Virus record (IMG/VR): IMGVR_UViG_3300036985_000928
Coordinates: 1 to 35,508 of that record
Length of the DNA: 35,508 nt
Source of the DNA: a virus
Reading direction: 5' to 3' (one strand)
Below, in pieces: positions 1 to 35,508 of this stretch. Each line of letters opens with the position of its first letter. The stretch's first letter is position 1. A program made the translations under genes and the position numbers. The notes under the pieces are model-generated. The model did not search any database. It had not been told where the DNA came from and saw only the letters and a list, made by a program, of their open reading frames with translations.

Positions 1-127
1 CACCCGAGCGAATCGTGTCAGGAACTGGCCGAGTATCTGGGGCGGTGGACTCAACCCTCGAACGGCTGCGAGAAGAAGCGGCTCGTACTGGCAACATGAC
101 GAAAGTCGTGCAGTACAAGGCGCAGAA
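1..127. repeat. Terminal direct repeat, left copy (assembly overlap)
   Basis: Bases 1-127 are identical to 35382-35508. The repeat lies inside the scaffold gene and keeps its reading frame when the two ends are joined, so it marks a circular contig rather than two gene copies. A length of exactly 127 equals a k-mer size commonly used by short-read assemblers, so I read it as an assembly overlap on a circularly permuted genome, not as a biological end repeat. Confidence 0.95.
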
Positions 128-17921: not shown

Positions 17922-18143
17922 TCACCTTGCTTTGATTACTGCGCGAACGCGCTCTCCAAGTTCTTCCGCATCGAACCATGTAACCAAACTCCCCTCACGC
18001 ATAATGACCGTCCAATTTTCTTCCTTAAGCGCCTCACGCTCGTCGGCGCGGACAAGTTGGATGAGCTTGGGTATGTCTATATGCCCATCCCAGTCGTTTT
18101 CTGTCCAAGCCTGCTTTGCAAGCTCTTTGTCTCGTTCGTTCAT
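17922..18143 (-). CDS. Hypothetical small acidic helical protein
   Basis: 73 aa from ATG 18143, with GGGGG about 7 nt upstream. Longer in-frame starts up to 18227 run through the neighbouring gene and lack a better site. The sequence begins MNERDKELAKQAWTENDWDG, continues IPKLIQLVRADEREALKEEN and ends in a helix (DAEELGERVRAVIKAR). The 'LV.AEREA' pattern is typical of short phage proteins of unknown role. The junction before its ATG (GGGGTATTGACATGA) is a near copy of the 16-bp boundary found at 19119 and 19226. Confidence 0.7.
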   Translation of the reverse strand: MNERDKELAKQAWTENDWDGHIDIPKLIQLVRADEREALKEENWTVIMREGSLVTWFDAEELGERVRAVIKAR

Positions 18144-18144
18144 G

Positions 18145-18285
18145 TCAATACCCCCAGCGAATATGGAAGCACACAACGTACAGGTGCAATGCAAACTCAT
18201 TGCCTCCGCTAAAAAACCCAACAGCAAAGCAAGGCCACTTGCGTGGAAAGAACTCAGCGTTTAGATGTAGGCTTTTTCTCATCAT
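18145..18285 (-). CDS. Very small hypothetical protein (46 aa)
   Basis: 46 aa, ATG 18285 to TGA 18145. The sequence has RKSLHLNAEFFPRKWPCFAV and ends in HIRWGY. The order 'FPRKWPC...GF......L.L....F...W' resembles small phage proteins that fill such clusters. Support comes from the ATGA overlap with the upstream stop, an AGGAGAA ribosome site inside that upstream gene, and the exact fill of the space between two other genes. It is aromatic-rich (five Phe in the middle), possibly a small beta or membrane-associated protein. Function unknown. Confidence 0.6.
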   Translation of the reverse strand: MMRKSLHLNAEFFPRKWPCFAVGFFSGGNEFALHLYVVCFHIRWGY

Positions 18286-18575
18286 TCTTCTCCTTCAAGG
18301 TTTTCAATATGTGTCTGCAAGTCAACGATGCGGGCTGTTTGAGCTGTCAGCATTGCTTCCAAGTCCTCAATGCGCTTTGCAATGCGTTGCATCTCCTCTA
18401 CCAGCACGGCTTCGGTGTTCCAGTCAGGATTAAAGCTATCTTTGCTTCTAACTCCACGATATACGTTGCCATCGCCATAGCAGTCGGTCTCTTGTGGTGT
18501 CCACGGGCACTTGCATCCCGGCAATATGCTGGCGTGCATCCCTTTAACCATTCCGCAGTTTGGGCAGGTGTTCAT
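18282..18575 (-). CDS. Hypothetical protein: N-terminal Cys cluster plus coiled coil
   Basis: 97 aa from ATG 18575, overlapping the upstream stop (ATGA); a longer in-frame reading from 18752 is a shadow of the neighbours. C4, C7, C21 and C23 (MNTCPNCGMVKG, LPGCKCPW) form a probable zinc site. Residues ~56-95 form a long coiled coil (VEEMQRIAKRIEDLEAMLTA, then IVDLQTHIENLEGEE). A zinc knuckle plus oligomerising helix suggests a small adaptor or inhibitor protein, but no family is recognised. Confidence 0.65.
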   Translation of the reverse strand: MNTCPNCGMVKGMHASILPGCKCPWTPQETDCYGDGNVYRGVRSKDSFNPDWNTEAVLVEEMQRIAKRIEDLEAMLTAQTARIVDLQTHIENLEGEE

Positions 18576-18724
18576 TCTTCTGTCTCCACTTGAGGAAAGG
18601 TTGAGGATAGAAAGCGCACCGCAGTGTCGCCATCCTTGAGTAGCACCGTGATCGTTGCGGCTTGCAAGTCTCTGCCGTAGATCAGCATCAGTGCTTCCAT
18701 GATTCGTTTCATTTCGTTGTTCAT
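18572..18724 (-). CDS. Hypothetical small protein (50 aa)
   Basis: 50 aa: starts MNNEMKRIMEALMLIYGRDL, followed by an alternating strand pattern (AATITVLLKDGDTAVRFLSS). ATG 18724 overlaps the upstream stop (ATGA) and has GGAGAAAA about 8 nt upstream. A longer in-frame reading to 18796 has no support. Function unknown; the short helix-then-strand layout is compatible with a single small folded domain. Confidence 0.6.
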   Translation of the reverse strand: MNNEMKRIMEALMLIYGRDLQAATITVLLKDGDTAVRFLSSTFPQVETEE

Positions 18725-19122
18725 GGCGCGTTTTTCTCCTTGAGTTTGGCAATTGTCTTGTCCATGATGTCTTTGTTGTTCAAGTCCATGCGCCAAATTT
18801 CATCGTATTCATCCTCCGTCAGCCCTACCCACGGGCGCTTTGGTGGGGTAATGTAGAACTTTGTGCCATCAGGCAGGTCATCCCATCCTGAGTGCAATAT
18901 CAATGTGCCTCTTGCTTCTTTGGTTATGGACGGCTCCTGCTCTAGTTGTGGTTTGCCAATGTCAGGATAAAACTGCTCCCACGCCACAGGCTCCTGCTCT
19001 GGCTGTGCTTCTGCTCTGTGCGCTCTGCCTTGCCAGTAATGCACATCACAAAACCCACCTTGGTCGATCCCCTCGGCATACAAGTTAAAGGCATGGCTGC
19101 CGCATTTGATGCACTTTTTCAT
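18721..19122 (-). CDS. Hypothetical protein with N-terminal zinc-knuckle-like Cys/His
   Basis: 133 aa from ATG 19122, with GGGGAA about 6 nt upstream. Residues 1-30 hold CIKCGSHAFNLYAEG and FCDVHYW, giving C4, C7, C25 and H28, a plausible zinc site. A Glu/Gln/Pro linker (QPEQEPVAWEQ) follows. The C-terminal half carries LPDGTKFYITPP and WVGLTEDEYDEIW, a pattern I recall from phage early-region proteins ('LPDGT.LY..P' then 'W.GLT..E'). Function unknown. Linker-joined modules suggest gene fusion by cassette shuffling. Confidence 0.7.
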   Translation of the reverse strand: MKKCIKCGSHAFNLYAEGIDQGGFCDVHYWQGRAHRAEAQPEQEPVAWEQFYPDIGKPQLEQEPSITKEARGTLILHSGWDDLPDGTKFYITPPKRPWVGLTEDEYDEIWRMDLNNKDIMDKTIAKLKEKNAP

Positions 19123-19229
19123 GTCAGATTCCCCTTGTGAAGTGCATAAAACACATACAACACGTAACCTGCGGCTAAAACAAGATCTGCGGTTATGAGC
19201 GCGAAAAATAATAGTAGCCAAATGCTCAT
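19119..19229 (-). CDS. 36-aa membrane peptide bracketed by a 16-bp repeat
   Basis: 36 aa (MSIWLLLFFALITADLVLAA then GYVLYVFYALHKGNLT). Almost the whole length is hydrophobic and would form one transmembrane helix. Both ends overlap neighbours as ATGA. The 16-bp sequence at the end of this gene is identical to that at its beginning, so it and the preceding protein both end in GNLT. This looks like a small cassette inserted at, or duplicated with, a gene junction. Small single-TM phage peptides often act on host membrane functions, but no role can be assigned. Confidence 0.6.
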   Translation of the reverse strand: MSIWLLLFFALITADLVLAAGYVLYVFYALHKGNLT

Positions 19230-19241
19230 GTCAGATTCCCC
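19119..19241 (-). repeat. 16-bp direct repeat at two successive gene junctions
   Basis: GGGGAATCTGACATGA (leftward strand) occurs exactly at 19119-19134 and 19226-19241, 107 bp apart. Each copy carries the ribosome site, the stop of the upstream gene and the start of the next. A looser copy, GGGGTATTGACATGA, lies at the 18145 junction. Recombination between the two exact copies would remove the 36-codon gene cleanly. Confidence 0.85.
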
Positions 19242-23746: not shown

Positions 23747-24775
23747 TCATGCAACCACCCTTGCACCAAAGTCGCGGCGCATTTCAGTAATCAATGGGTT
23801 ACCGCTACCGCAGGCAGGTGCATTGGCCAGCAGTTCGCGCGAGCTGAACACGCCTTCAATCTCGGGGTCGCCGTTGGCCACGGTCACGCCGTTAATTTCA
23901 TAGACAGCGGTAAACGCATCCGGCCCGTCTTTGCGCTTCCACGGCACCAGATCAGGGTGCAGGACGTGGCCTTCGCATCCCGTGCGCTGGGCGTCCAGCG
24001 GTATCACGTCGTCCCATTTCGCGCAGTGCCAGGTGGAATCAGACAATGGCGTGGCCATCGCGCAGGTTCGGCAGTTGACGTGTTTGGTGGTTTTGCTCCC
24101 AAAGCATTGGTCGTGGCCGTCGCAGAATTTGCATTGATACCAGCTTGCATCGGCGCTCAAGGGCTCAGGCATCCGGTCGGTTAACGCAATGCGGTGGCCG
24201 CGGGCAATCGCTTTGCCTGCCACCTCTTTGTCCAGCTTAATCCGCTCGGTGTGAATGCGATCGTCATCCTTGCATACAGCCAGGTACAGCGCCCGGTCCA
24301 AACCAGTCCCGGCCATATAGGCCTGCATCTGCACAAAATGCTCAGGCTTCGACTTCTCGACGCCATCCTTCACCAGCAAATCAAACGACTTTTTGGAATG
24401 CGTCTTGAACTCGGCAACATGTTTGGTCTTTGGTGCACCCGGCACTCCGCTATCAATGATGGCGTCTAGGCTGCCAGAAACGTGGCCACCAAAGTCCACC
24501 CGGTGCTGGCTTGTGGTTTGCCGCACGTCCATGCCGATAGCCCGCAGGTCGCTGATAATGTTTGGCTCCTCTTGGTGGCCTCGACGGAACAGGCGCAGGA
24601 TGCGGCCAGGGAAGGTCGGCTGCACAGCCCAGCGGAACGACAGCCACAGCCAGCGGTCACAAGCATGGCCCAGCGTACTGGCACCCAGATGCGGACGCGG
24701 CACCTCGGCCTGCGCCTCGTGGTGCTTATCAATCAGCGCCTGGATATTGTTGGTTTCTACTTCTGGAATTTTCAT
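23747..24775 (-). CDS. PD-(D/E)XK exonuclease with Cas4/AddB-like cysteine set
   Basis: 342 aa. The nuclease core shows H67...E70 (RRGHQEE), GSLDAII with D104, EFKTHS with E122 and K124, and a helix with Q149 (FVQMQAYM), the RecB-type exonuclease layout. C39 (GHACDRW) before the core and C215, C218, C224 after it (CKFCDGHDQC) match the spacing of the four-cysteine iron-sulphur site in Cas4 and AddB nucleases. A second group (C235, C238, C251, C267) may bind zinc. With Sak4-like and DUF669 genes upstream it should form the phage's exonuclease-annealing recombination system. No Cas genes or repeats are present, so a CRISPR role is not implied. Confidence 0.88.
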   Translation of the reverse strand: MKIPEVETNNIQALIDKHHEAQAEVPRPHLGASTLGHACDRWLWLSFRWAVQPTFPGRILRLFRRGHQEEPNIISDLRAIGMDVRQTTSQHRVDFGGHVSGSLDAIIDSGVPGAPKTKHVAEFKTHSKKSFDLLVKDGVEKSKPEHFVQMQAYMAGTGLDRALYLAVCKDDDRIHTERIKLDKEVAGKAIARGHRIALTDRMPEPLSADASWYQCKFCDGHDQCFGSKTTKHVNCRTCAMATPLSDSTWHCAKWDDVIPLDAQRTGCEGHVLHPDLVPWKRKDGPDAFTAVYEINGVTVANGDPEIEGVFSSRELLANAPACGSGNPLITEMRRDFGARVVA

Positions 24776-24864: not shown

Positions 24865-25350
24865 TTACTTCTTAGCCCAAGGTGGTGCGGCTTTGGCCGT
24901 TGCAGCTTGTGCAGCCATAACTGGCACACTAGCAGCAGGTGCAACGCTTCCAGAGACCGATTTAAAGGCCTTGACCTCGTTGCTGGCACCGTACTGCGCA
25001 TCCTCTTTCACTTCCAGCTTGATGGCGATCTGACCACCAATCAACTGGTCGGTGTCCGTCACCTTGGCCAGGCCAATCGCTCGCATGATGTCGCCCAACT
25101 GCTGGCGGCCAATCTCCTCGGCCTTCGGGTTTGCGTTCTTGATGTTCAGGTTTCCAAACACGACGCGGCCTTGGTGGCTGGGGCCAGTCACGTCGTAGCG
25201 CAGCTTGATGTACTGGCCATTGCCAGCCTTCGTGGGCTTCAATTCGGCCTGCGAAATCGTCACGGTGTACCAGCCCGCAGGCAGGGGCTCAAAATTGCCA
25301 TTGCCCTGGGGCAGTTCGTTGACGTTAAATTCTTCGTTGAGAAAAGCCAT
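24865..25350 (-). CDS. DUF669 family protein, probable single-strand DNA-binding partner
   Basis: 161 aa from ATG 25350; a longer reading to 25449 lies in the next gene. The family signature is clear: FEPLPAGWYTVTISQAELKPTKAGNGQYIKLRYDV in the 20-55 region, GRVVFGNLNIKNANPKAEEIGRQQLGDIMRAIG at ~62-94, and GGQIAIKLEVKEDAQYGASNEVKAFK. A low-complexity Ala/Pro/Val linker ends in PPWAKK. DUF669 proteins sit beside phage annealing proteins and exonucleases and are thought to act as SSB-like factors; Sak4 needs an SSB in the one system I know of. The Ala-rich linker and short tail resemble SSB tails in layout, though not in acidity. Confidence 0.88.
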   Translation of the reverse strand: MAFLNEEFNVNELPQGNGNFEPLPAGWYTVTISQAELKPTKAGNGQYIKLRYDVTGPSHQGRVVFGNLNIKNANPKAEEIGRQQLGDIMRAIGLAKVTDTDQLIGGQIAIKLEVKEDAQYGASNEVKAFKSVSGSVAPAASVPVMAAQAATAKAAPPWAKK

Positions 25351-25352
25351 GA

Positions 25353-25745
25353 TTAATCCTTGATAGTGATTTTGAAAGAAGGGCGGCCAGGTTTGGCCGT
25401 AATAGCACCGGCCAAAGGCCCAGTGATCGTTGCGTCGGCAGCTTTCCATGCCATCATGTTTATTTCAGGTTTCCAGCGGAACAGCTTGGCCAGGTGTTCA
25501 CCCAGACCAAACTCAGCGGCCAGCTCCTGCACCTTGTCGCCGTCAACCTTGCGGTCGATGCGGCCAGCAACCTTCACCACAAAGCCTTCCGGCTCGGCGG
25601 TCTCGGTGCTTTCGAAGTTTTCAGGTATGGCCAACAGCTTGACCATCTGATCTTCAATCTTGCGGCGCTCGGTCTGCGCCTTCTCCTCGTCAGCCTTGTA
25701 CTGCATCCAAAATGCAGACAATAATTTCAGGTCAGCGTGCATCAT
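25353..25745 (-). CDS. Conserved phage recombination-region protein
   Basis: 130 aa from ATG 25745 (TGATG overlap with the upstream stop). A helical N-terminus (SAFWMQYKADEEKAQTERRK, IEDQMVKLL) is followed by a strand pair (GFVVKVAGRIDRKVDGDKVQ), a helix, and LFRWKPEINMMAWKA. A C-terminal KPGRPSFKITIKD completes a pattern that I recall from many phages next to DUF669 and annealing genes. The 'FRWKPE' core is conserved in that family. Function unknown; the constant neighbourhood suggests recombination or replication support. Confidence 0.8.
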   Translation of the reverse strand: MMHADLKLLSAFWMQYKADEEKAQTERRKIEDQMVKLLAIPENFESTETAEPEGFVVKVAGRIDRKVDGDKVQELAAEFGLGEHLAKLFRWKPEINMMAWKAADATITGPLAGAITAKPGRPSFKITIKD

Positions 25746-25930
25746 CAATTCCTCGCTTCCAGCATGGCGTCAGCATCTGCATACGCCTGCTCGGTCAACT
25801 CGGTAAGCGTCCAATCGTCGTATTTCGCAAGACGCACCTGAAACGCTTTAATTGCAAAGTAGTCACGCAAGGTCATGCCCTTGTTATATGTAGATTCGGA
25901 AACTGAGGGAAATGCTGATATGTTGTTCAT
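25745..25930 (-). CDS. Small conserved phage protein (61 aa)
   Basis: 61 aa from ATG 25930 (ATGA overlap). MTLRDYFAIKAFQVRLAKYD is followed by TELTEQAYADADAMLEARN, a very common motif ('MTLRDYFA.KA......... A..AY..ADAML.AR') in phage and prophage replication regions. The role is not known. The protein is one long helix-rich domain. Both ends overlap neighbours, so it is part of the Sak4-DUF669 operon. Confidence 0.8.
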   Translation of the reverse strand: MNNISAFPSVSESTYNKGMTLRDYFAIKAFQVRLAKYDDWTLTELTEQAYADADAMLEARN

Positions 25931-26604
25931 GCCCGCTCCCCTATCTTGGCAATGATGGCGCCCAGGTCGGGGGATTCCCATGCGCCTAATTTGCCGCTGC
26001 GGTCTTTGGCCAGCCACAGGCCATCCGAATCGCACATGAGGGCGCGCTGCGTCACGCCTTCGGCGTCGCGCTCAACCCGCAGGGCCAGCACTTCATCAAA
26101 GAAGTAGGGCAAGCCTTGGGTCAGGCTCTTTCCCGGCATTCCAGGGTTGTAAAGCATCTTGCCCATCTCGTCGGTGGACTTTTCCAGCTTGGCGCTCATG
26201 AACACATGCTTACCCGGCAGATCGCGGAAGGCGCGGATTAGCTCCTGCATCGTGCTATTCATTTCGCCATACGCGGCCCGGCCATCCTTGGACTTTTTCA
26301 TTTCGTGGTGCAAAACCACCTCGGCCACTTCCGAAATGCTATCCAACGCCACCGACTCAAAGCCTGCGGCCTCCTTGGAATCCTTGCACCAGCTAAACGC
26401 CTCGCGCAGATCGTCCATGCTTGTAATTTCGATGTAAGGCAGGTCAGCGTCCTGAATGGACAGCAAACCACCCTCAGCCGAAAGCACGATCACATTAGGC
26501 AAGGTCTTGACCAAGGTGGTCTTGCCTGCACCCGCTGCGCCATACACAAGCAGCTTCACTCCATTGGCGGTAAGCCCGCCCGTCGTCTTCAAATTGATAG
26601 CCAT
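25927..26604 (-). CDS. Sak4-like RecA-family ATPase (AAA_24), single-strand annealing protein
   Basis: 225 aa from ATG 26604 with AAGGAGA about 5 nt upstream; an in-frame ATG at 26625 would add seven residues. Walker A is GAAGAGKT (22-29), followed by ETVALDSISE-like SVALDSISEVAE (Walker B area, ~85-96) and GKHVFMSAKLEKSTDEMGK (~133-150). This is the short RecA-fold family used by phages as the Sak4 recombinase. It is the first gene of the leftward block, directly after the control region, hence an early gene. SSB-like DUF669 and an exonuclease follow in the same operon. Confidence 0.88.
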   Translation of the reverse strand: MAINLKTTGGLTANGVKLLVYGAAGAGKTTLVKTLPNVIVLSAEGGLLSIQDADLPYIEITSMDDLREAFSWCKDSKEAAGFESVALDSISEVAEVVLHHEMKKSKDGRAAYGEMNSTMQELIRAFRDLPGKHVFMSAKLEKSTDEMGKMLYNPGMPGKSLTQGLPYFFDEVLALRVERDAEGVTQRALMCDSDGLWLAKDRSGKLGAWESPDLGAIIAKIGERA

Positions 26605-26653
26605 CTGGCTCTCCTTTTTTAGCACCCGTCTGGAAATCAGTTCGGTGCATGGC

Positions 26654-29641: not shown

Positions 29642-30862
29642 ATGTCAATGATTCAACACAATCCCGCCGACAAGGTTGAGCGCTGGGACATTACCCGCCT
29701 GGTGCCTTACGCACGCAACAGCCGCACGCACAGCGACGAGCAAATCGGCCAGATTGCGGCCTCGATCAAAGAATGGGGCTGGACTACTCCGGTGCTCGTT
29801 GACGAGGCTGGAAGCATCATTGCTGGCCATGGCAGGACGCTTGCAGCCCAGCGCCTCAAGATGACCGAGGTTCCCGTGATGGTGGCCACAGGCTGGAGCG
29901 ATGCCAAGAAGCGGGCCTACATCATTGCGGACAACAAGCTGGCGCTTAATGGTGGCTGGGATGAGCAGATGCTGGCGCTTGAGCTGGGTGAGATTGGTGA
30001 GCTGGGGTTTGACCTTGACCTGACTGGCTTCACAGCCGATGAGATTGCAGCTCTGACTCCTGAGCAGATCGAGCCTGGCCTGACCGATGAGGATGAAGTG
30101 CCTGAGCTGCCTGAGCAACCAGTCACTGTGCTTGGCGATGTTTGGGTTCTTGGTAAGCACCGGCTCATGTGCGGTGACTCGACCAGCATCGATGCGGTGG
30201 ATAAGCTCATGGATGGCCAGAAGGCTGACATGGTGTTCACCGATCCGCCTTACGGAGTTGACTACAAAGGCATTAAGAACGATGACCGAGGTGGGCTTGA
30301 AGAATTATTGCGCGGCGCTTTCGGCAACTTTCTTGCTGTATCAAAGTCTGGTGCGTCTATTTACGTGTTTCATTCAGACCGCTGCGCGGACATATTCCAC
30401 AAAGTGTTTCGCGAGTTTTTCCACTTTAGCTCGATGATTATTTGGGCGAAGAACTCGCTCACGCTGTCGCAGACTGACTATCAAAGTCAGCACGAACCTT
30501 GCTTATACGGCTGGATGGACAACGGCACCCATTCTTGGCACTCGGATCGGAAACAAACATCGGTATGGCGGTTCGACAAAGAGCGCGTGGACGGTCACAC
30601 GACTCCGAAACCGGTAGAGCTAGTGGCGAAGGCGATCAGCAACAGCAGCAAAGGCGGCGACACCATTTCCGACCTGTTCGGTGGGTCTGGCTCCACGCTA
30701 ATCGCTTGCGAAAAGACCGGGCGGGAGTCTCGCCTAATGGAGCTAGACCCGAAGTATTGCGACGTCATAGTCAAGCGCTGGCAAGACTTCACAGGCAAAA
30801 TCGCAGTTCACGCAGAAACCGGAAAACCTTTCGCGGAGGTTCAAAATGACAGCAAAACTTGA
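29642..30862 (+). CDS. ParB-like domain fused to DNA N6-adenine/N4-cytosine methyltransferase
   Basis: 406 aa. Residues ~12-120 are a ParB/Srx-type domain with LVPYARNSRTHSDEQIGQIA and IIAGHGRTLAA (GHGR at 62-65). Residues ~165-390 are an N6_N4 methyltransferase with motif IV DPPY (201-204) and, later in the chain, motif I FGGSGST (346-352), the order of beta-class enzymes. DPPY favours adenine-N6. No matching restriction enzyme is present, so it probably protects phage DNA or marks sites. It sits next to the terminase genes, a common location for such fusions, and overlaps the small terminase gene by 17 nt. Confidence 0.93.
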   Translation: MSMIQHNPADKVERWDITRLVPYARNSRTHSDEQIGQIAASIKEWGWTTPVLVDEAGSIIAGHGRTLAAQRLKMTEVPVMVATGWSDAKKRAYIIADNKLALNGGWDEQMLALELGEIGELGFDLDLTGFTADEIAALTPEQIEPGLTDEDEVPELPEQPVTVLGDVWVLGKHRLMCGDSTSIDAVDKLMDGQKADMVFTDPPYGVDYKGIKNDDRGGLEELLRGAFGNFLAVSKSGASIYVFHSDRCADIFHKVFREFFHFSSMIIWAKNSLTLSQTDYQSQHEPCLYGWMDNGTHSWHSDRKQTSVWRFDKERVDGHTTPKPVELVAKAISNSSKGGDTISDLFGGSGSTLIACEKTGRESRLMELDPKYCDVIVKRWQDFTGKIAVHAETGKPFAEVQNDSKT

Positions 30863-34669: not shown

Positions 34670-35508
34670 ATGATGAATCAAAAGGTAGAAGCAAGCGATA
34701 ACGACGACGACGACGTGATGGTCGAGGACCAAATCCAAGTTGAGGACGCGCCCAGCGCAGACTCAGCCGATGAATCAGACGAAAGCGAAACCGACGAAGT
34801 ATTCGTGAGCATTGGTGAGGAAGCGCCACCTCCCGAGGAAACAACTCAAGCCCCCGAATGGGTACGCGAGTTGCGTAAGACAAACCGAGAACTGCAACGC
34901 CAGAACCGCGAACTCCAAGGCAAGCTGCAAACCACCACGACTGAGAACAAGCCGGTCGCGCTGGGCAAGAAGCCAAGCCTAGAAGATCACGACTACGACG
35001 CGGAGAAGTTTGAGGAAGCACTAACGACATGGTTCGAGCGCAAGCGACAAGCCGATGACGTTAACGCCAAGCACGAAGCTGAAGTTATGAATCAGCAAAA
35101 GGCCTGGCAGTCCAAACTGGATGGCTACGGCAAAGCGAAAGCAGAGCTAAAGGTCAAAGATTTTGAAGACGCCGAGGCAGTAGCCCAGGAGTTATTCAGC
35201 GTCACCCAGCAAGGCGTGGTGCTCCAAGGCGCAGATAATCCTGCGCTGGTGATTTACGCACTTGGCAAGAACCCCAAGAAGGCCAAAGAGTTGTCCGAAA
35301 TCAAAGACCCCGTAAAGTTTGCCTTTGCGGTAGCAAAACTGGAGAAAGAATTGAAAGTTACCAACCGCAAGGCAGCACCACCACCCGAGCGAATCGTGTC
35401 AGGAACTGGCCGAGTATCTGGGGCGGTGGACTCAACCCTCGAACGGCTGCGAGAAGAAGCGGCTCGTACTGGCAACATGACGAAAGTCGTGCAGTACAAG
35501 GCGCAGAA
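34670..35508 (+). CDS. Scaffolding protein (gp8 position), N-terminal part; gene continues at base 1
   Basis: Two adjacent ATGs (34670, 34673) follow CAGGG. The frame is open to the end of the window and continues across the junction to TGA at 146, giving 285 aa. The N-terminal ~65 residues are very acidic (a DNDDDD stretch, many Glu/Asp). Residues ~70-95 are a coiled coil (VRELRKTNRELQRQNRELQG), and a Lys/Glu helical region follows. This is typical of P22-like and other phage scaffolds, which line the prohead and leave before DNA enters. The position between portal and coat matches P22 gene 8. No protease motif is seen. Similarity is structural and positional, not by clear sequence match. 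Confidence 0.85.
   Translation, partial: MMNQKVEASDNDDDDVMVEDQIQVEDAPSADSADESDESETDEVFVSIGEEAPPPEETTQAPEWVRELRKTNRELQRQNRELQGKLQTTTTENKPVALGKKPSLEDHDYDAEKFEEALTTWFERKRQADDVNAKHEAEVMNQQKAWQSKLDGYGKAKAELKVKDFEDAEAVAQELFSVTQQGVVLQGADNPALVIYALGKNPKKAKELSEIKDPVKFAFAVAKLEKELKVTNRKAAPPPERIVSGTGRVSGAVDSTLERLREEAARTGNMTKVVQYKAQ
35382..35508. repeat. Terminal direct repeat, right copy (assembly overlap)
   Basis: Identical to bases 1-127. One copy should be removed to give the 35,381-bp circular map. Both copies lie in the C-terminal coding part of the scaffold gene. Confidence 0.95.

Follow-up and report, generated by a model that had tools for sequence, protein, structure and literature searches.

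The window analysed here, the whole 35,508-nucleotide IMG/VR virus record IMGVR_UViG_3300036985_000928, bears on the minus strand, at roughly 17.7-21.4 kb, an array of small genes, many of which overlap through the tetranucleotide ATGA (Table 1). The two ends of the window (1-127 and 35382-35508) carry an identical repeat of 127 bp, suggesting a closed or circular record. The array genes tested gave no Pfam or PHROGs family above the cut-off and only weak matches below it; the MKLQ gene had neither a Pfam nor a PHROGs family, and no Pfam family was found for the MKKC gene. MKLQ was absent from the phage collection, and none of its 159 pattern matches in bacterial genomes was confirmed. The 36-codon gene had no relatives in the viral contigs (0 of 34 pattern matches confirmed).

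Array genes are themselves mosaic (18721-19122 in the window, L013, L010 and many other loci), with differing N-modules followed by an AQPxQEPVA linker whose codons are nearly fixed, and then by PP[KQ]RxWVGLTDEE, a variable part and finally KLKEKNT, the end that they have in common. The common C-terminal module was counted in 206 genes across 172 loci, and the only relatives of the linker/WVGLT part in the annotated phage collection were in the uncultured records MW202867, MW202879 and MW202701 (Manatee Spring), with 34-41% identity. An MNQEMKRIM gene is present in two copies in the single array of L010 (5713-5865 and 6628-6780), with different genes after each one.

Table 1. Coordinates of the array genes, seams and recombination genes in the window
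Feature	Position	Strand	Basis or remarks
MKLQ gene, 89 aa	19226..19495	-	39 relatives in viral contigs (alignment search)
Right seam copy	19226..19241	-	Ends MKLQ (3' end, GNLT stop) and starts the 36-aa gene (ribosome site, ATGA)
36-codon gene, predicted single-pass membrane peptide	19119..19229	-	ORF, strongly hydrophobic in one stretch; Kyte-Doolittle 19-residue maximum 2.28
Left seam copy	19119..19134	-	Ends the 36-aa gene (3' end, GNLT stop) and starts the next gene (ribosome site, ATGA)
MKKC gene, 133 aa	18721..19122	-	Cysteine-bearing N-module, linker, WVGLT C-module; relatives in L027-L039
AQPEQEPVA linker within the MKKC gene	18982..19008	-	Same 27 bp in the nearest relative
PPKRPWVGLTEDE stretch, start of the common C-terminal module	18808..18857	-	50-bp matches in many loci
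Seam GAAAAACGCGCCATGA, end of the MKKC gene	18721..18736	-	Shared with the nearest relative
MNNEMKRIM gene, next array member	18572..18724	-	Twice in the nearest relative; directly after MKLQ in L011
Junction first read as a looser copy	18141..18155	-	507-bp three-gene insert here in the nearest relative
Sak4-like single-strand annealing protein, candidate recombinase	25927..26610	-	phrog_124, E=3.8e-57
DUF669, single-strand DNA binding protein-like	24865..25449	-	PF05037, E=1.4e-13; phrog_6015
Cas4-domain/RecE-like exonuclease	23747..24775	-	phrog_1990, E=1.1e-94; phrog_434

The 16-mer GGGGAATCTGACATGA occurs twice in the window, in exact copies 107 bp apart that flank the 36-codon gene. Each copy consists of a ribosome-site-like GGGG run, 8 nt and then ATGA, in which TGA is the stop of the upstream gene and ATG the start of the downstream one; at both junctions, which we call seams, the ribosome site lies within the upstream gene, and the products of the two genes upstream, MKLQ and the 36-residue peptide, both terminate in GNLT. 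The original prediction had described this arrangement, including the exact repeat at both junctions of the tiny gene, and the reading frames bore it out. It had also taken the two GNLT proteins as unrelated, in agreement with the alignment of the 36-residue body to the MKLQ 3' end, which did not exceed the level of shuffled sequences.

The concern that the motif could be merely frequent as a start context was dispelled by its two copies in the whole genome, with no third match even when up to three mismatches were permitted (0.30 expected from shuffles). Exact direct repeats of at least 16 bp averaged 0.20 per genome in 100 first-order Markov simulations, against two in the window, and none of the simulated pairs lay within 300 bp. 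The second repeat of this length, GCCCAGCGCCTCAAGA, is found at 29846 and 33538, 3.7 kb apart. The junction at 18145, proposed as a looser copy of the 16-mer, turned out to have a different architecture, with the stop TGA at 18147-18145, the start ATG at 18143 and one base between them; it differs from the 16-mer by an indel and was hence missed by the search with three mismatches.

Readings of the seam as a promoter, terminator or hairpin were rejected, because neither seam contained a terminator or a stable hairpin above shuffle level and the only promoter-like match was a weak one beginning in the right seam (shuffle mean 0.3). An attC-like inverted repeat, as in an integron cassette, was not found at the 3' end either, the 36-nt folds of both seams being at shuffle level, and the integron reading was rejected on this structural ground. 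A 12-nt imperfect inverted repeat (19105-19116 and 19140-19151) surrounds only the left copy; its predicted fold is only weakly better than shuffles (z from -1.2 to -1.9), and a hairpin formed by it could mask the ribosome site of the following gene.

When 2.9 million viral contigs were searched, GGGGAATCTGACATGA was found in seven stretches. The original prediction had proposed to look for the 16-mer at gene junctions of related phages. Three of the stretches are MKLQ relatives with the 16-mer at the MKLQ end; in the other four the frame leading into it was open over no more than some 15 codons and no gene visibly ended there. In the three relatives the next gene was of the MKEALKLALEALE kind, differing from the 36-residue gene. 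Across 35 distinct MKLQ loci, the window included, the genes after MKLQ fell into 13 clusters of gene starts. The GGGG run at the MKLQ end was kept in 34 of these loci, a long GNLT/GNRT end was present in six, and the exact GGGGAATCTGACATGA was limited to the window and the three relatives. Moreover, homology of the window with six relatives stopped exactly at 19226, the final base of the overlap. MKLQ thus has the right copy as its own 3' end, and this copy lies at a mosaic boundary.

On the other side, one pattern search found the start of the MKKC gene in three other places, preceded by other genes and other seams, and homology to this gene began at 19124 in L028, L029 and L070, two bases before the ATG, and at 19137 in L027. 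Since the homology begins at or near the start codon behind other genes, the left copy also sits on a mosaic boundary.

The nearest relative at this locus, IMGVR 3300011339_000296, is 91% identical to the window over the last 625 bp upstream, diverges at the right seam and rejoins with 27 identical bases at the linker of the MKKC gene, so that the exchanged block comprises the 36-residue gene together with the MKKC N-module. This comparison shows that exchange really occurs at the right seam, but does not show it for the left one. The insert that this genome carries at the 18145 junction has an overlap of 3 bp. A relative lacking exactly 19135-19241 with the rest kept, which the original prediction had proposed to look for, was not found among the relatives compared.

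In order to see how often the same seam brackets a gene elsewhere, all fetched loci were combined into an atlas (281 loci after removal of redundancy, 2.42 Mb), which contained 1946 ATGA junctions bearing a ribosome-site-like run. Such junctions were present at both ends of 890 genes, and 840 of these genes had no similarity to their upstream gene. Because many loci had been fetched by a seam pattern, the commonest seam class (GGAG...) was excluded, leaving 406 pairs. The 12 nt before ATGA were identical on both sides in 11 of the 406, compared with a mean of 0.40, and a maximum of 4 in 1000 rounds, when junctions were paired across contigs, and with 2 of 518 for non-adjacent junctions of the same contig. 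Seams identical over at least 15 nt numbered seven (0.28 in the control), the longest being of 22 nt. The 11 bracketed cases used eight different seams, one of them four times. A smaller set of 172 loci behaved likewise (7 of 343 against 0.28). When the commonest seam was included there was only a small excess, both in the atlas (33 of 840, 26.1 expected, largest control 38) and in the smaller set (23 of 510, 16.7 expected, largest control 28), because that seam is everywhere; the enrichment rests on the rarer seams. The closest parallels to the window were L061 and L070, in each of which a small membrane-peptide gene is flanked by identical 16-mers.

These counts bear on the explanation that selection alone shaped the junctions, recombination being illegitimate and possible anywhere, the survivors being recombinants at gene boundaries that retain an overlap and a functional ribosome site, and the identity of the seams arising by coincidence or convergence. 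The seam would then be a passive ribosome-site context. The boundary position by itself would follow from this explanation, given that the genes have no spacer. However, the constraint of the ribosome site is already contained in the cross-contig control, which the observed identities exceed at both lengths, and we regard selection alone as unlikely.

Another explanation is tandem duplication, by which an upstream gene would be duplicated with its seam and the body of the copy lost or replaced, leaving the seam behind. Tandem paralogues are common in the arrays, as in the doubled MNQEMKRIM gene of L010, and in L044 neighbouring genes that belong to one upstream cluster have a seam in common. 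Nevertheless, the 36-residue body shows no resemblance to the MKLQ 3' end beyond shuffles, and a membrane peptide would be an improbable diverged copy of a soluble protein, which makes this origin distinctly improbable.

The commonest seam was analysed separately. The 24-mer AARCTCAAGGAGAAGAACACATGA, which encodes KLKEKNT and a stop, recurs unusually often as an exact word where genes of viral contigs join (L087-L205); it was present in at least 120 viral contigs, followed by very diverse genes. Its shorter form GGAGAAGAACACATGA occupied 166 of 1181 junctions, at which the upstream genes formed 21 clusters and the downstream genes 73. Among 16 KLKEKNT genes retrieved by a protein search, CTC encoded the Leu of the motif in 14, although it makes up 6% of the Leu codons in the bodies of the same genes. 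The retention of this rare codon may point to inheritance of the seam as DNA and argues against selection as the only cause. Other Leu codons are nevertheless common in the KLKEKNT seam across the collection, and because these also gave at least 120 matches the commonest seam is not one fixed DNA word there. In bacterial genomes AARCTCAAGGAGAAGAACACATGA was found only in two contigs of betaproteobacterial metagenome-assembled genomes, one of them Rhodoferax, suggesting that the hosts are betaproteobacteria.

Comparison of close relatives yielded 35 indels, or 33 once two duplicates had been removed. A start/stop overlap lay in the breakpoint window of 19 of these, against 7.4 expected at random positions. 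The repeat at the breakpoints was of at least 9 bp in 12 indels and shorter than 9 bp in the other 21, so that many of the boundary events involve no long repeat of a seam. The three clearest pairs of filled and empty sites were the products expected from an exchange between seam copies, namely L254 and L310, which differ by one 69-codon gene gained or lost (206 bp, 41-bp repeat), L043 and L046 (209 bp, 29-bp repeat) and L011 and L084 (407 bp, 18-bp repeat); the 29- and 41-bp seam copies contain a few mismatches. L134 and L308 differ by a 614-bp insert at a gene boundary with an overlap of 2-3 bp. This insert and that at 18145 disfavour a single mechanism, and the latter insert and the 21 indels with short overlaps are also what selection acting on illegitimate recombinants would leave. 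The reading of the repeat as a cassette boundary accordingly stood in part, with mosaic boundaries at both copies, enriched identical seams and filled/empty pairs elsewhere on one side, and on the other the missing exact empty allele, the exchange with the nearest relative that ends at the linker and the 3-bp overlap at 18145.

Nearly all the comparison loci were metagenome contigs, and assembly could in principle have joined different phages at short shared sequences. Usual assembly word lengths exceed 16-41 bp, the range of the repeats, the same boundaries recurred in many contigs and the end repeat of the window is like that of a closed record, all of which makes such an artefact extremely improbable.

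The phage also encodes proteins that could handle short homologies. Besides the three recombination genes of Table 1, a helicase and a VRR nuclease were identified by Pfam/PHROGs profile matches, and the Sak4, DUF669 single-strand binding protein and exonuclease set is, judging from the profiles, a plausible engine for annealing at short homologies. According to PMC3945230, RecA pairing requires a minimum of 31-34 bp and Red beta pairing one of 23-27 bp. Seams of 29 and 41 bp are within reach of Red beta, whereas the 16 bp of the window are below both minima, a shortfall that fits selection without homology. For the window, template switching, or an exchange within MKLQ combined with a second event, would be more likely than simple homologous recombination over 16 bp.

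Taken together, we consider it rather probable that ribosome-site/ATGA seams are heritable cassette boundaries in the accessory arrays of betaproteobacterial phages, acting through the gain and loss of genes bracketed by seams. In such a seam the next gene has its ribosome site within the last codons of the upstream one, and ATGA doubles as stop and start; because the array genes overlap without spacer, the seam would be inherited with the boundary and not with the gene body. At this locus, the native 3' end of MKLQ supplies the right copy and the 36-residue gene would have been placed after it as a cassette, gain being the presumed direction. The second seam copy, at the 3' end of the cassette, would keep translational coupling to both neighbours, provided that the small ORF is translated as predicted. 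Gain and loss of this kind seem to recur in these phages, most likely by way of short-homology annealing or template switching at the seams, with longer homologies such as MKLQ itself and the in-frame linkers as further exchange sites, and the Sak4/SSB/exonuclease module probably aids the recombination. A bolder version, in which a small vocabulary of seams provides reusable joints and Sak4 drives the in-frame splicing of integrase-free cassettes with coupling intact, seems to us possible but doubtful.

Short conserved boundary or linker sequences have been described in lambdoid phages (Susskind and Botstein 1978; Clark et al. 2001, as cited in PMC3029335 and PMC3233612). As presented in those citing texts, they resemble the seams in being short shared sequences at module boundaries and proposed sites of homologous recombination. 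Two elements of such mosaicism were seen here, the same short sequence between unrelated modules (11 of 406 against 0.4, and the pair in the window) and inter-genome homology ending at the boundary sequence (six relatives at 19226, and the filled/empty pairs). In contrast with the lambdoid case as so described, here the boundary is a ribosome site and a stop/start overlap inside coding sequence, and several different seams recur around very small genes.

A close precedent is gene 68 of the mycobacteriophage Island3. This small gene has no homologues, and its last 18 codons match the end of the upstream gene over about 50 bp; the account of it in PMC3029335 proposes deletion or insertion by recombination between the repeats and calls it the first in mycobacteriophages. 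By that account it is essentially the same event as in the window, but a single case, compared with 11 cases of identical 12-nt seams and three filled/empty pairs here, mostly with shorter seams. The mobile regulatory cassettes of T4-type phages, or PeSLs (Arbiol 2010 and Comeau 2014, as cited in PMC4503421), are similarly short sequences between genes that promote modular shuffling. In that citing text they are named promoter-terminator motifs, whereas the seams of the window showed no combination of promoter and stem-loop. Integron gene cassettes, reported in phages (PMC9892861), also consist of one small gene with a recombination site at its 3' end, but the seam is short, coding and without a hairpin. 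The shuffling of protein fragments in phages (PMC10684548, the title of which concerns core functions) is comparable to the genes built here from N-module, linker and C-module, although here small accessory genes without an assigned family are involved.

The kind of event is thus already known from Island3 gene 68 and the boundary sequences, and the present cases are ordinary in kind and unusual in their clarity and frequency. We found no description in the open-access literature of a large phage group in which ribosome-site/ATGA seams recurrently form the boundary. Since the ribosome site of the next gene encodes them, unrelated small phage proteins may end in the same four to eight residues. 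An uncultured, water-borne phage group offers in this way a well-populated natural example of an old and seldom documented idea of genome shuffling; its hundreds of comparable junctions, recurring seam words and pairs of filled and empty sites may allow the two models of phage mosaicism, in the form stated in PMC3233612, to be separated by counting.
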